Assembly: GCF_015732285.1 (NCBI RefSeq) | Contig: NZ_WIQU01000046.1 | Span: forward strand, 62,001-126,000 | From: Pectinatus frisingensis | GTDB taxonomy: Bacteria > Bacillota > Negativicutes > Selenomonadales > Selenomonadaceae | Length of the DNA: 64,000 nt | Direction: 5' to 3' | Shown: piece after piece, positions 53,099-59,022 of the stretch | Numbering within the stretch: the stretch's first letter is position 1 | Layout: the number at the start of each line of letters is the position of its first letter | Position numbers and translations under genes: made by a program | Notes under the pieces: generated by a model | What the model was told of the DNA's origin: nothing | The model's input: the letters and a program-made list of their open reading frames with translations, nothing else | The model's database searches: none

Positions 53099-53962
53099 AT
53101 GCGGCTTTTGAAAGCAATGAAAGAAACTGAGCGTTTCAATTCAACAGAACAGTCAATAATAAAATATATTTTAATTCATTCTAAGGAAATTGCCGATTTG
53201 TCGATACGTGAGCTGGCTGAACGGGCTTTTGCGAGTCCGGCAGCGATATTCCGTCTTTGCCAGAAACTGAATCTTAAAGGATATACAGAATTTAAAATAA
53301 AATTTATAAGTGAAATAAATCGTACATCTGCATTGGAATATCCTATTAAAGGCCGGCCAATCACTGACAAAAATCCACCGGATTCGATTGTAAAAAAGAT
53401 AGCGGCTCTGGAAATAGAATCTATTGAAGAAACAAAGAATGAAATGGATATACAACAGCTGATACGGGTAGCCGGATTTATCGCTGATGCCAAAACAGTA
53501 GATTTTTATGCATTTGACGTGAATTACTATATAGCCCAAATTACAGCATATAATTTTTTGCAGATTAAAAAAAATGCAGTGGTGACAATGGCAGCCAATA
53601 GTCAGTATATGCGGGCATTGACTTGTGACAATACACATGTGGCCGTTTTTTTGAGCCGGACGGGAGAAAATAAACGACTGATTGATATAGCTAAAATTTT
53701 GCAAAAAAGAAAAATAAAGTCTTTTTTGCTGTCACCGGTAAAAAATTCCACATTGGCAGGATTAATTGATGAATTTTTATACATTGCAAATACTGAAGAA
53801 TATCTTGATATGGGAAATATGATTTTCAATGTGGGTGTACGATATTATCAAGATGTTTTGTTCAGCATATTATTGTCGCAGGATTATTGGAATATACGCC
53901 GCACTTATACGGAATTTGAGGATATATTTGGCCGATTGAAAGATTCATGGCATTTGTGGTAG
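53099..53962 (+). CDS. RpiR-family transcriptional regulator
   Basis: 287 residues. The N-terminal HTH_6 domain reads FNSTEQSIIKYILIHSKEIADLSIRELAERAFASPAAIFRLCQKLNLKGYTEFK in outline, with the family DRxxAxxxxR-like turn. The C-terminal SIS domain (about 125-260) contains VAVFLSRTGENKRLIDIAKIL, the usual phosphosugar-binding stretch. The start is ATG 53099 with AAAGGA upstream. It precedes a beta-glucoside PTS operon on the same strand, so it probably responds to a phosphorylated sugar and controls that operon. Confidence 0.9.
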   Translation: MRLLKAMKETERFNSTEQSIIKYILIHSKEIADLSIRELAERAFASPAAIFRLCQKLNLKGYTEFKIKFISEINRTSALEYPIKGRPITDKNPPDSIVKKIAALEIESIEETKNEMDIQQLIRVAGFIADAKTVDFYAFDVNYYIAQITAYNFLQIKKNAVVTMAANSQYMRALTCDNTHVAVFLSRTGENKRLIDIAKILQKRKIKSFLLSPVKNSTLAGLIDEFLYIANTEEYLDMGNMIFNVGVRYYQDVLFSILLSQDYWNIRRTYTEFEDIFGRLKDSWHLW

Positions 53963-53993
53963 GTAATAATTAAAAAATTACATAGTAATGATT

Positions 53994-54034
53994 AAATACG
54001 AAATAATGTTTCAGTATATTTCGTATTTTTTTTA
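53994..54034 (+). terminator. Rho-independent terminator between the RpiR gene and the PTS operon
   Basis: AAATACGAAATA (53994-54005) pairs with TATTTCGTATTT (54017-54028), followed by a T run. Confidence 0.8.
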
Positions 54035-54064
54035 TTTTGCCGGAACATCATTCCAAAATGTTAT

Positions 54065-54089
54065 GAATTGCTTGAATTGAGCAATTGCT
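54065..54089. promoter_or_regulatory. Candidate operator upstream of the PTS operon
   Basis: GAATTGCT-TGAATTG-AGCAATTGC, an inverted repeat about 130 bases before celB. RpiR regulators bind palindromes, so this may be the operator; this is inference only. Confidence 0.35.
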
Positions 54090-54212
54090 CTGTATTAATA
54101 TTAATTCGAAATTCTTGTACATTGCGCATTGTATGAAGGAAATGCTTGCCATTGATTAAAGTTTTGTAAAAAAACAGTATGACAAATGGAATGGAAAGGA
54201 TATGAAAATGAA

Positions 54213-55869: not shown

Positions 55870-55886
55870 TCATCGGGAGGTATAAA

Positions 55887-56201
55887 ATGGAAGGATTGGA
55901 GTTAATTGCCTTTAATATTATATCGGCAGTAGGAACGGCACGCAGCTGCTATATAGAAGCAATACAAAAGGCTAAAGCAGGTGATTTTAAATCAGCAGAA
56001 ACACTTATCGGGGAGGGTGACACCGTTTTTAATGAAGGTCATAAATCACATGCTGAACTGCTGCAAGAAGAAGCAAACGGCAGTCGGGGAATTGTTAATT
56101 TGCTGCTGTTGCATGCGGAAGATCAGCTTATGAGTGCCGAAGGTTTCAAAATAATTGCATTAGAATTTATCGATGTTTATAAAAAATTCAACAAAAAATA
56201 G
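55887..56201 (+). CDS. celC: PTS system IIA, lactose/cellobiose family
   Basis: 104 residues, all-helical trimeric IIA. The phospho-histidine lies in LLLLHAEDQLMSAE near residue 76; the N-terminus has FNIISAVGTARSCYIEAIQKAKAGDF. The start has GGGAGG upstream. 21 bp before the glucosidase gene. Confidence 0.95.
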   Translation: MEGLELIAFNIISAVGTARSCYIEAIQKAKAGDFKSAETLIGEGDTVFNEGHKSHAELLQEEANGSRGIVNLLLLHAEDQLMSAEGFKIIALEFIDVYKKFNKK

Positions 56202-56222
56202 TTAAGTGGAGGTTATTATTAT

Positions 56223-57662
56223 ATGGGATTTTCTAAAGGATTTTTGTGGGGTGGAGCTGTAGCAGCTCATCAACTGGAAGGTGGCTGGCAGGAGGGTGGT
56301 AAAGGAGTAAGTGTCGCAGATGTAATGACTGCAGGAAGATACGGTGTACCGCGGGAAATTACTGATGGAGTTGTTGCTGGGAAAAATTATCCTAACCATT
56401 CTGGTATTGAATTTTATTACCGGTATAAGGAAGATGTTGCCCTGCTGGCTCAAATGGGATTTAAATGTTTTCGCACCAGTATAGCCTGGACTCGGATATT
56501 TCCCAATGGAGATGAACTGGAACCCAACGAAGCAGGTTTAAAATTTTATGATGATTTATTTGATGAATTACACAGATACAATATTGAACCTGTGATAACA
56601 TTGTCACATTTTGAAATGCCATATAATCTTGTTACTAAATATGGCGGTTGGCGAAATCGCAAAATAATAGAATTTTTTGTGCGCTTTGCGACAGCTGTAT
56701 TTGAACGATACAAGAATAAAGTAAAATACTGGCTGACCTTTAATGAAATAAATAATCAAAGTGATTTGGATATCCCATTTTTATCATTCACTAATTCCGG
56801 TGTGATATATAAACCTGGTGAAAATAAGAAGGCTGTTATGTATCAAGTGGCACATCATGAATTTTTGGCATCGGCATTAGCTGTAATCGAAGGGCATAAA
56901 ATAAATCCTGAATTCAAGATAGGCTGCATGTTATCAATGCAGCCGGTTTATCCTTACAGCTGCGATCCGGCAGATCAGATAAAACAAATTGAAGAAATGC
57001 ATAAAAGGTTCTTTTTTGGTGACGTGCAGTGTCGTGGACATTACCCTGCTTATGCGGTTAAGGAATGGAAAAACGAGGGATACGATATAAAGATGCAAGA
57101 TGGTGATCTTGCTATTTTGGCTCAGGGAATCGTTGATTATTTTTCTTTTAGTTATTATATGAGTTACGCGGTGTCGGCCAATCCTCAGTTAATGAAATCA
57201 GTAGGCGGCGGATTTGCCACGGCAGTTGATAATCCATATTTGAAACAATCTGAATGGGGTTGGCAGATAGATCCGGTAGGTTTGCGATACGTTCTCAATC
57301 TTTTGTCAGAACGCTATGAATTACCATTAATGATTGTTGAAAATGGTATCGGTATCAATGATGCACGAAATGCAGCCGGGCAATTTGCCGATGATGAGCG
57401 TATTGATTATTTCAAAGCCCATATAGAACAAATGAAAAAAGCCGTAGATGAAGATGGGGTTAACCTTTTGGGGTATTGCACCTGGGGACCGATTGATATC
57501 GTGTCGGCAGGTACAGGAGAAATGGAAAAACGCTATGGATTTATTTACGTTGATAAAGATAATACAGGACGGGGAACACTTGAGCGGGAAAAGAAAAAAT
57601 CGTTTTATTGGTATAAAAAAGTAATAAAAAGTAATGGTGAAAATCTTTCCAATGGTGAATGA
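56223..57662 (+). CDS. 6-phospho-beta-glucosidase, GH1
   Basis: Hydrolyses phosphorylated beta-glucosides delivered by the PTS. 479 residues: [16 protein letters not shown] at the N-terminus, acid/base Glu in TFNEINN near residue 174, nucleophile Glu in MIVENGIG near residue 373, and the phosphate-binding loop [17 protein letters not shown] near residue 428, which marks the 6-phospho branch of GH1. BglA/AscB-like. Ends about 130 bases before the porin gene. Confidence 0.95.
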
Positions 57663-57795
57663 AATCGGCAGCGGATATTTGTATATATGAAATAACTGCC
57701 ATAGCATTGATAAGACTGCTTAGGCAAATGAAGGGCAGTTTTATCAATGTATATTGTTTATAAAAAAATGAAAATTCAGAAAGGAAATAAATAAT

Positions 57796-59022
57796 ATGAA
57801 AAAACAATTAAGTATATTTATGTTATTGGCAGCAGCTGCTGTATTTCCCGGTGGTGTGTCGGCATCAGGCAATGATCAAAACAGCACATGGAATATGGAG
57901 GCAGACAGCACCGGTATTTCTCAAAGCGAACAAGAAAATTCTATTGATAAAGCTGATCATGAAAAAATGCAGAAACTCCAAGAGCAATACGAAGTCGAAC
58001 TGATAAAGATGCAGCAGCTGCGTGCCGAATATGAGAAAGAACTGCAAAAAATGAACGTCAACGATAGTGACTATAATTCATTAAAAGAAAAAGTCGATAA
58101 AATTACACTATTTGGTTTTATAAGAGCTAAATATGATAATGATGACAGTGGCAGTATCGGAGCCGGCAATAATAACAAGCATTTTTATATGGATTTAGAA
58201 GGCAAGATGAAAGTATCAAAAGATTGGGAAGCACATTTTCAGAGTGAAACACGCAAGGGTTATACAGTCAATCAATCCTGGCGCGGTGATTCCGGTTCCG
58301 GCAGCTCCGATCAGGATGGTACTTTCCAGCGTATATGGGTGGAAGGCCATCCGGGAAAATTAGGTGTTACTGTAGGGACAAAATGGTGGGGTTACGGTTT
58401 TCAAAATGTTCCCTTTGGACATGCAGCAGATGGTATTCAACTGGATTATGACATAACTAAGGACTGGAATGCCAAAGTATTTTTATTGAGACCGCGCCAA
58501 GGAGATCTGGTTACAATGCCATATGGGCAGGATACAACAATAAAAGGGGTTAATTTCACCGGAAAACTAACTCCCAAGCTGGATACAAGCATAACTTTGG
58601 CTGGTAATAAAAATTATGATAATAATCAAAAAATGGATAGGATGGGGGCATTTGAACTGCGGTCAAATGTTGCTCCTAATTTAATGCTTACAGGAACCTA
58701 TGTAAGGACAAATGCGGACGATTACAATACTAGTAAGGAATGCCGCATAGATTATAAAGGCACAAAACTGGATGATATAGGATCTTTTGGAGCATATGCC
58801 AGATACATCAACTTTGCTAAATATGGTGATTATTCACATGATGACGAATGGAATTCTCTGCCGTCAGACACGAAGGGCTGGATTGTTGGTGTTAAATATG
58901 TACCTTATAAGAATGTTGAATGGGAAACCTTTTATGCCGATCAAAAAAGAAATATAGATACAGGTGACGATCACAATGCAACCAGACATCTTTTCCGTAC
59001 ACAGATAGATTTTCATTTTTAA
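57796..59022 (+). CDS. Outer-membrane porin with N-terminal coiled coil, no SLH domain
   Basis: 408 residues. Signal peptide about 1-24 (LSIFMLLAAAAVFPGGVSASG). Next a heptad-rich coiled coil about 50-100 (KMQKLQEQYEVELIKMQQLR). From FGFIRAKYDNDDS onward it is alternating beta-barrel sequence ending IDFHF, with the terminal Phe used for barrel insertion. Negativicutes OmpM proteins carry an SLH domain before the coiled coil; none is seen here. The position after the PTS and glucosidase genes suggests a sugar channel. The start follows AGAAAGGAAA. Confidence 0.85.
   Translation: MKKQLSIFMLLAAAAVFPGGVSASGNDQNSTWNMEADSTGISQSEQENSIDKADHEKMQKLQEQYEVELIKMQQLRAEYEKELQKMNVNDSDYNSLKEKVDKITLFGFIRAKYDNDDSGSIGAGNNNKHFYMDLEGKMKVSKDWEAHFQSETRKGYTVNQSWRGDSGSGSSDQDGTFQRIWVEGHPGKLGVTVGTKWWGYGFQNVPFGHAADGIQLDYDITKDWNAKVFLLRPRQGDLVTMPYGQDTTIKGVNFTGKLTPKLDTSITLAGNKNYDNNQKMDRMGAFELRSNVAPNLMLTGTYVRTNADDYNTSKECRIDYKGTKLDDIGSFGAYARYINFAKYGDYSHDDEWNSLPSDTKGWIVGVKYVPYKNVEWETFYADQKRNIDTGDDHNATRHLFRTQIDFHF

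Follow-up and report, generated by a model that had tools for sequence, protein, structure and literature searches.

Can a sugar phosphotransferase system (PTS) locus bring with it, besides its own enzymes, its own passage through the outer membrane? The question is raised by a stretch of 64,000 nucleotides from Pectinatus frisingensis (contig NZ_WIQU01000046.1, positions 62,001 to 126,000), referred to here at its full length as the window. Six genes on one strand (+) occupy positions 53099-59022 in the order rpiR-IIC-IIB-IIA-GH1-porin, as an original prediction made from the letters alone had described, and all of these open reading frames are present and intact:

53099..53962, + strand: rpiR-type regulator, 287 aa (Pfam HTH_6 and SIS)
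54186..55523, + strand: PTS IIC, lactose/cellobiose family, 445 aa, start codon uncertain (PF02378, TIGR00410)
55567..55869, + strand: PTS IIB, lactose/cellobiose family (PF02302)
55887..56201, + strand: PTS IIA, lactose/cellobiose family (PF02255)
56223..57662, + strand: GH1 6-phospho-beta-glucosidase, 479 aa (PF00232, NF007154)
57796..59022, + strand: SLH-less OmpM-family porin, 408 aa (profile, fold and Pfam SLH test)

As judged from sequence comparison and a predicted structure, this is probably a cellobiose or beta-glucoside PTS locus with a dedicated, untethered outer-membrane channel derived from OmpM, which would carry the substrate and be expressed along with the operon. IIC, IIB and IIA were all assigned by Pfam or NCBIfam to the lactose/cellobiose (lac/cel) family, with IIC scoring 362 bits against the NCBIfam model TIGR00410 (cut-off 236), and beta-glucosides are therefore a reasonable putative substrate class. 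The GH1 enzyme reached 767.1 bits against the 6-phospho-beta-glucosidase model NF007154 (cut-off 624), and Enzyme I is encoded elsewhere in the same genome (PF05524 above cut-off at G000:C48). In the proposed mechanism, the channel would admit di- or oligo-beta-glucosides across the outer membrane, their phosphorylation and import would fall to IIC, IIB and IIA, and the 6-phospho product would be cleaved by the GH1 enzyme. The porin would be produced together with the operon and, having no SLH domain, would not tether the outer membrane; a channel that is wider or fitted to sugars would benefit a cell living on cellobiose or salicin.

The porin itself matches no Pfam or NCBIfam family above cut-off. 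Its sequence ends in ...QIDFHF, which we take to be the usual C-terminal outer-membrane signature, and a profile built from 23 sequences retrieved the Veillonella OmpM1 structure 8bys from the PDB at 3e-47. An AlphaFold2 model, computed from an alignment of 32 sequences (A2), has a mean predicted local distance difference test score (pLDDT) of 76 and a predicted template-modelling score (pTM) of 0.68, and contains two parts:

57922..58095, + strand: predicted coiled-coil helix, residues 43-100 (low confidence, block pLDDT 42-63)
58102..59019, + strand: 16-stranded barrel, residues 103-408 (model strands spanning 103 to 407)

In fold comparison OmpM1 ranked first, with a Z score of 27.2 over 301 residues, the runners-up reaching 19.7. 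Because OmpM1 is closest by both profile and fold, and the model has 16 strands, the porin is best described on these comparisons as an OmpM-family barrel without the SLH anchor rather than as a new porin class. Pfam SLH (PF00395) matches 23 of the 32 A2 sequences, the window porin being among the nine without a match, and Pfam and NCBIfam detect no other wall-binding domain in it. MAFFT aligned part of its N-terminus with the SLH end, and no SLH remnant is claimed from this. The prediction that the porin lacks an SLH domain and keeps a coiled coil is upheld in its first part and supported in its second by the low-confidence helix; the structure prediction that it proposed for the barrel gave the OmpM1-like result above.

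LamB-type porins, of which BglH is one, are known to use aromatic pore residues for the passage of sugars. In the present comparison, W197 is found in 55/55 porins from saccharide loci and 0/9 generic OmpM-type porins, D349 in 55/55 and 1/9, and W352 in 51/55 and 0/9, respectively; the cel clade of the window additionally carries W198 (16/19), H209 (19/19) and H348 (19/19). These sites lie where strand 5 ends, beside L3, and in L7, the stretch between strands 13 and 14 as assigned from the strand list of the model, and they would be expected to face the pore. According to the available part of the OmpM1 study (PMC10628300), L3 and L7 make up the constriction of OmpM1, and in liposome swelling that protein passes monosaccharides and not disaccharides.

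The association of such porins with PTS loci was surveyed in 100 genomes related to that of the window, the window genome itself being left out. They yielded 124 porin places and 98 IIC places after removal of the further pieces of split genes and of tandem copies that lay a few kb or less from a better match. No strong homologue (as defined below) in the four genus-mates is among the matches listed. Homologues were termed strong at E < 1e-20 and weak from 1e-20 to 1e-5, and linkage was counted within 10 kb. Among the matches listed, 22 of 39 strong loci lie near a lac/cel IIC and 0 of 85 weak loci do. The weak matches are presumed OmpM-like; that they were screened for lac/cel IIC only counts against the dedicated-channel reading. 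The few weak matches that were fetched (L073-L076) bear SLH by motif script. Twelve of the other 17 strong loci stand with EIICBA/EIIABC and GH13, HAD phosphatase, MalQ or pullulanase, three have pullulanase as a neighbour but no visible enzyme II in the stretch, and two have neither nearby. Since it was collected by similarity to a PTS-linked porin, the strong set counts as a single group of relatives rather than as 39 separate events.

A collection in which 84,980 species are represented by one genome each was scanned with two peptide patterns, and 56 named loci resulted; the scan is not a full survey and missed most Vibrio copies. Three of the loci are Vibrio. The remainder fall in Selenomonas, Mitsuokella, Propionispira, Megamonas, Pelosinus, Megasphaera, Anaerovibrio, Massilibacillus and Lucifera, and in unnamed Selenomonadaceae and Veillonellaceae. 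The loci were typed as “cel” or “mal” by BLAST labels against proteins of the window, L066 and L064, themselves typed by Pfam; “mal” also covers pullulanase loci with no enzyme II seen, and one row, L143, is marked “cel?” as it is cut before IIC. Among cel-type porin reading frames from Negativicutes in the named loci, 24/34 lie immediately downstream of IIC, on its strand and at most 88 nt from it, a count in which one gene split in two pieces enters twice; in L063 the contig end cuts the locus upstream of the porin. By these sequence counts, the association between the porin subfamily and saccharide PTS loci is strong in Negativicutes, and the view that the PTS locus would cover the outer membrane too gains from its recurrence there.

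The alpha-glucan PTS loci L065, L066, L093 and L095 contain EIICBA, GH13, HAD phosphatase, an SLH-bearing porin, pullulanase and GH4, with the porin between phosphatase and pullulanase. In the Megasphaera loci L134, L137 and L138 no pullulanase follows the porin.

PTS context and SLH state were followed on a barrel-only tree. The 113 porins collected included near copies from two collections and were reduced to 68 at <93% barrel identity, and SLH state was scored by a motif script with which Pfam agrees in number on the 32 A2 sequences. This tree requires no fewer than two changes of PTS context (cel or mal) and no fewer than four of SLH state, and a single clade of all SLH-less porins is rejected (p 2e-56). 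All 14 SLH-less rows from Negativicutes, the window included, lie beside a cel-type locus (L143 being cut before IIC), as do four of the six Vibrio rows, the exceptions being L104 and L169, and none of the 19 mal-linked rows lacks SLH. As the barrel of the window porin is placed among SLH-bearing OmpM-type porins, its anchor was lost, and by this tree the SLH anchor is lost more than once among OmpM-type porins. An SLH-bearing row, L146, is nested within an SLH-less group, and the number of losses is therefore not settled. A sister pairing of the window with Megamonas was rejected on the first tree (p 0.005); that pair was named after the identities had been seen.

The closest SLH-less relatives of the window porin lie in another phylum. 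In the genus of Vibrio ruber, a single such porin occurs in each of 12 genomes out of 227. Identity within the matched region is 60-65%, and SLH is absent (by eye in all 12, confirmed by Pfam in three). The porin adjoins a lac/cel PTS locus in nine of the 12, composed of IIC, IIB, IIC, GH1, IIA and LacI. Vibrio porins with such a PTS locus, containing two IIC genes, as neighbour are those of L101, L102, L168 and L170-L175. An order-wide sample of 394 genomes gave three matches, namely V. ruber and two others, the latter representing 2/12 genomes of their family; ast and ahp genes stand beside one of these two porins (Pfam), with a like gene order beside the other. The gammaproteobacterial rows all group together (100/99), with the window porin as their sister at 92/86, a node not starred. 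The first tree, of 68 rows, had joined window and Vibrio at 100/96, and the lower value obtained after two further gammaproteobacterial sequences were added is the one used here.

When the tree was rooted with generic OmpM, window and Vibrio fell in a clade of 21 rows (100/96), the remaining 14 being cel-linked porins of Negativicutes; the inner nodes that would fix the exact position are weak. On these placements the nearest SLH-less kin of the window porin are gammaproteobacterial, which indicates inter-phylum transfer, and the barrel most likely came from Negativicutes, because window and Vibrio nest among cel-linked porins of that group. Besides being sister to the gammaproteobacterial clade, the window porin has no counterpart in its four genus-mates and is positioned differently from the other copies seen in Negativicutes; it may represent either the donor lineage or a return transfer. 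The available part of PMC10628300 describes the OmpM tether as absent in Gracilicutes. An anchor-less barrel in Gammaproteobacteria does not contradict this, yet the barrel did reach Gracilicutes.

Two hairpins were located in the gaps between the genes:

53994..54028, + strand: terminator-like hairpin with T-run, rpiR-IIC gap (z only -1.65)
57704..57750, + strand: 18-bp hairpin without T-run, GH1-porin gap (z -5.66, 0/200 shuffles as stable)

A comparable hairpin occupies the equivalent rpiR-IIC position in an operon of the same genus (L039, genome G001), whose rpiR counterpart is 75% identical to that of the window. Owing to the T-run hairpin, rpiR may form its own transcription unit and be transcribed alone. 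The GH1-porin hairpin has no T-run, and read-through from GH1 into the porin is therefore plausible; no second full copy of this hairpin was found across the same genome. In L039, by contrast, the hairpin that comes after the GH1 gene is strong and has a long T-run. A 12-bp palindrome at 54079-54090 was considered as an RpiR operator and dropped, it being the sole match in the window with none before IIC in L039, and a promoter scan was uninformative (40 sites against 33.9 expected).

The alternative that fares best, although unlikely, is a general, non-selective diffusion porin for many solutes, with expression of its own, that landed behind the PTS operon by chance. Several observations weigh for it and against a dedicated channel. 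The same-genus operon L039, with proteins 75-83% identical, has no porin in its 16-kb stretch. Of the 29 close IICs in the survey, 14 have a strong porin within 10 kb and 15 do not (among the matches listed), three of the 15 being on contigs shorter than 9 kb (G052:C43, G061:C197, G036:C80). Placement of the porin after GH1, across a 133-nt gap holding a strong hairpin, is unlike that in its kin, and co-transcription is therefore less sure in the window than in them. In the nine Vibrio genomes with a PTS neighbour, the porin is not on the strand of the adjacent IIC; in 5/14 gammaproteobacterial genomes no labelled PTS gene occurs in the ~16-kb stretch. Lastly, the same genome contains on contig 25 a second lac/cel PTS operon (L037, 5501-12921; GH1, IIC, IIB, IIA and a PRD regulator) with a second, OmpM-like porin ~3.5 kb from IIC on the opposite strand; thus a generic porin near a PTS operon does occur. 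The L037 porin has unread bases near its start.

A chance neighbour, on the other hand, accounts poorly for the split between strong and weak homologues near lac/cel IIC, for the 12 further strong loci with alpha-glucan PTS genes, for the strand 5 and L7 residues that, a single D349 apart, are not found in nine generic porins, and for a PTS context that tracks the tree. The concern raised in the original prediction, loss of linkage in relatives, is realized in part: the association recurs across Negativicutes, and it is missing from L039 and from 15/29 close IICs. Because of these porin-less operons, the porin-PTS link is, from the gene content seen, not obligatory, and a channel is not needed in principle. 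A dedicated channel in the window nevertheless remains the reading that we prefer, and the sugar specificity suggested in the original prediction is plausible.

The prediction had further suggested that the porin may belong to a different tethering class. In such a class, wall binding would be taken over from SLH by the coiled coil or by a partner protein. A stalk similar to that of the window porin (by eye) is kept in the gammaproteobacterial kin and hence should have some use, which trimer stability would explain equally. The claim did not hold up and is now very improbable, as Pfam and NCBIfam find no wall-binding domain, the barrel falls among SLH-bearing OmpM-type porins, the SLH-less state arose more than once among these, and the Vibrio kin bear the same kind of stalk. 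To our knowledge, the Vibrio wall is not known to carry the polyamine ligand of OmpM. Membership of the LamB/ScrY/BglH sugar-porin family has next to no chance of being correct, for although the operon logic is that of bglH in the E. coli beta-glucoside operon (PMC2646131), there is no LamB family match, the predicted model has 16 strands against the 18 of LamB and ScrY (PMC3706956, both papers in their available parts), OmpM1 is the nearest fold, and LamB-type folds are not among the structural matches listed, an absence that proves nothing by itself.

The following history is somewhat better than an even bet: a general porin of diderm Bacillota that tethers the wall gave rise to substrate-operon channels, became SLH-less at least twice and crossed once to Gammaproteobacteria, with the window as donor lineage or return. 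In that scenario, anchored forms would serve alpha-glucans and beta-glucosides, and un-anchored forms would stand beside cellobiose-type PTS loci, as they do in all the Negativicutes examples seen.

The local setting of the locus is also distinctive. In four genus-mates kor and ung are spaced by 189, 243, 1585 and 1759 nt, and in the window by 6.6 kb filled by the whole locus; among the five genomes of the genus seen, only the source species has the locus in this interval, and the PTS operon that the porin follows has a porin-less counterpart within the genus. Insertions may be frequent in this interval, as at a hot spot. In L183 (2706-4291, G001) and L186 (7850-9609, G004) it holds a ~425-codon frame that resembles lysine 2,3-aminomutase by eye. 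Two copies of a dispersed element flank the locus:

52924..53066, + strand: dispersed hairpin element, left flank, edges approximate (repeat matches)
59167..59312, + strand: diverged copy of the same hairpin element, right flank, edges approximate (repeat matches)

The element is intergenic, ~145 bp long and forms one long hairpin with inverted-repeat ends; it looks like a palindromic miniature element, with no Rfam family at gathering threshold. As it has 45 whole or partial matches in the same genome, itself included, the flanking copies were dropped as proof of locus mobility. The short kor-ung gaps of G002 and G003 contain other hairpins, but a BLAST search detected no copy of the element there. 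Foreign origin could not be argued from base composition, the guanine-cytosine content at third positions (0.31-0.38 in the six genes, 0.33-0.40 in six neighbours) being too close, and a search for plasmid carriage gave no match among 72,556 plasmid records. Elsewhere in the window, a class A RNase P RNA lies at 35898-36247 (-).

A porin within a beta-glucoside PTS operon is already known from BglH of E. coli, as stated in the available parts of PMC2646131 and PMC2996990. A search of open-licence papers returned no account of PTS-linked OmpM-type porins, of SLH-less forms or of their presence in Vibrio. OmpM has been proposed as possibly ancestral, joining outer-membrane tethering and nutrient uptake through genetic linkage. 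The two roles look separable in nature, with the barrel re-used as an operon channel, its anchor dropped repeatedly, and moved into Vibrio and its kin; the scenario of multiple losses, if true, would separate them. Natural pairs, anchored and un-anchored, alpha- and beta-glucoside, would thereby be at hand for testing sugar passage and tethering needs. This is of wider interest than the PTS-linked porin first remarked upon.

Among known systems, the closest is OmpM1 of Veillonella parvula (PDB 8bys, 8bym, 8byt), with which the window porin shares a 16-stranded barrel, a coiled-coil stalk and barrel sequence homology; this homology extends to the OmpM family at large, including Mep45 of Selenomonas ruminantium. 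The window porin differs from OmpM in having no SLH anchor and sitting in a PTS locus, and its residues in L7 and where strand 5 ends are not those of OmpM1. BglH of the E. coli bgl operon and ScrY of the enteric sucrose system are likewise substrate porins encoded with a sugar PTS and a hydrolase, so far as the available parts of the sources describe them; LamB and ScrY are 18-stranded, whereas the window porin has 16 strands in its model, and no sequence kinship was found between them. With lactose/cellobiose-family PTS operons the locus has all components in common, namely IIC, IIB, IIA, GH1 and RpiR, and to these it adds a porin behind GH1.

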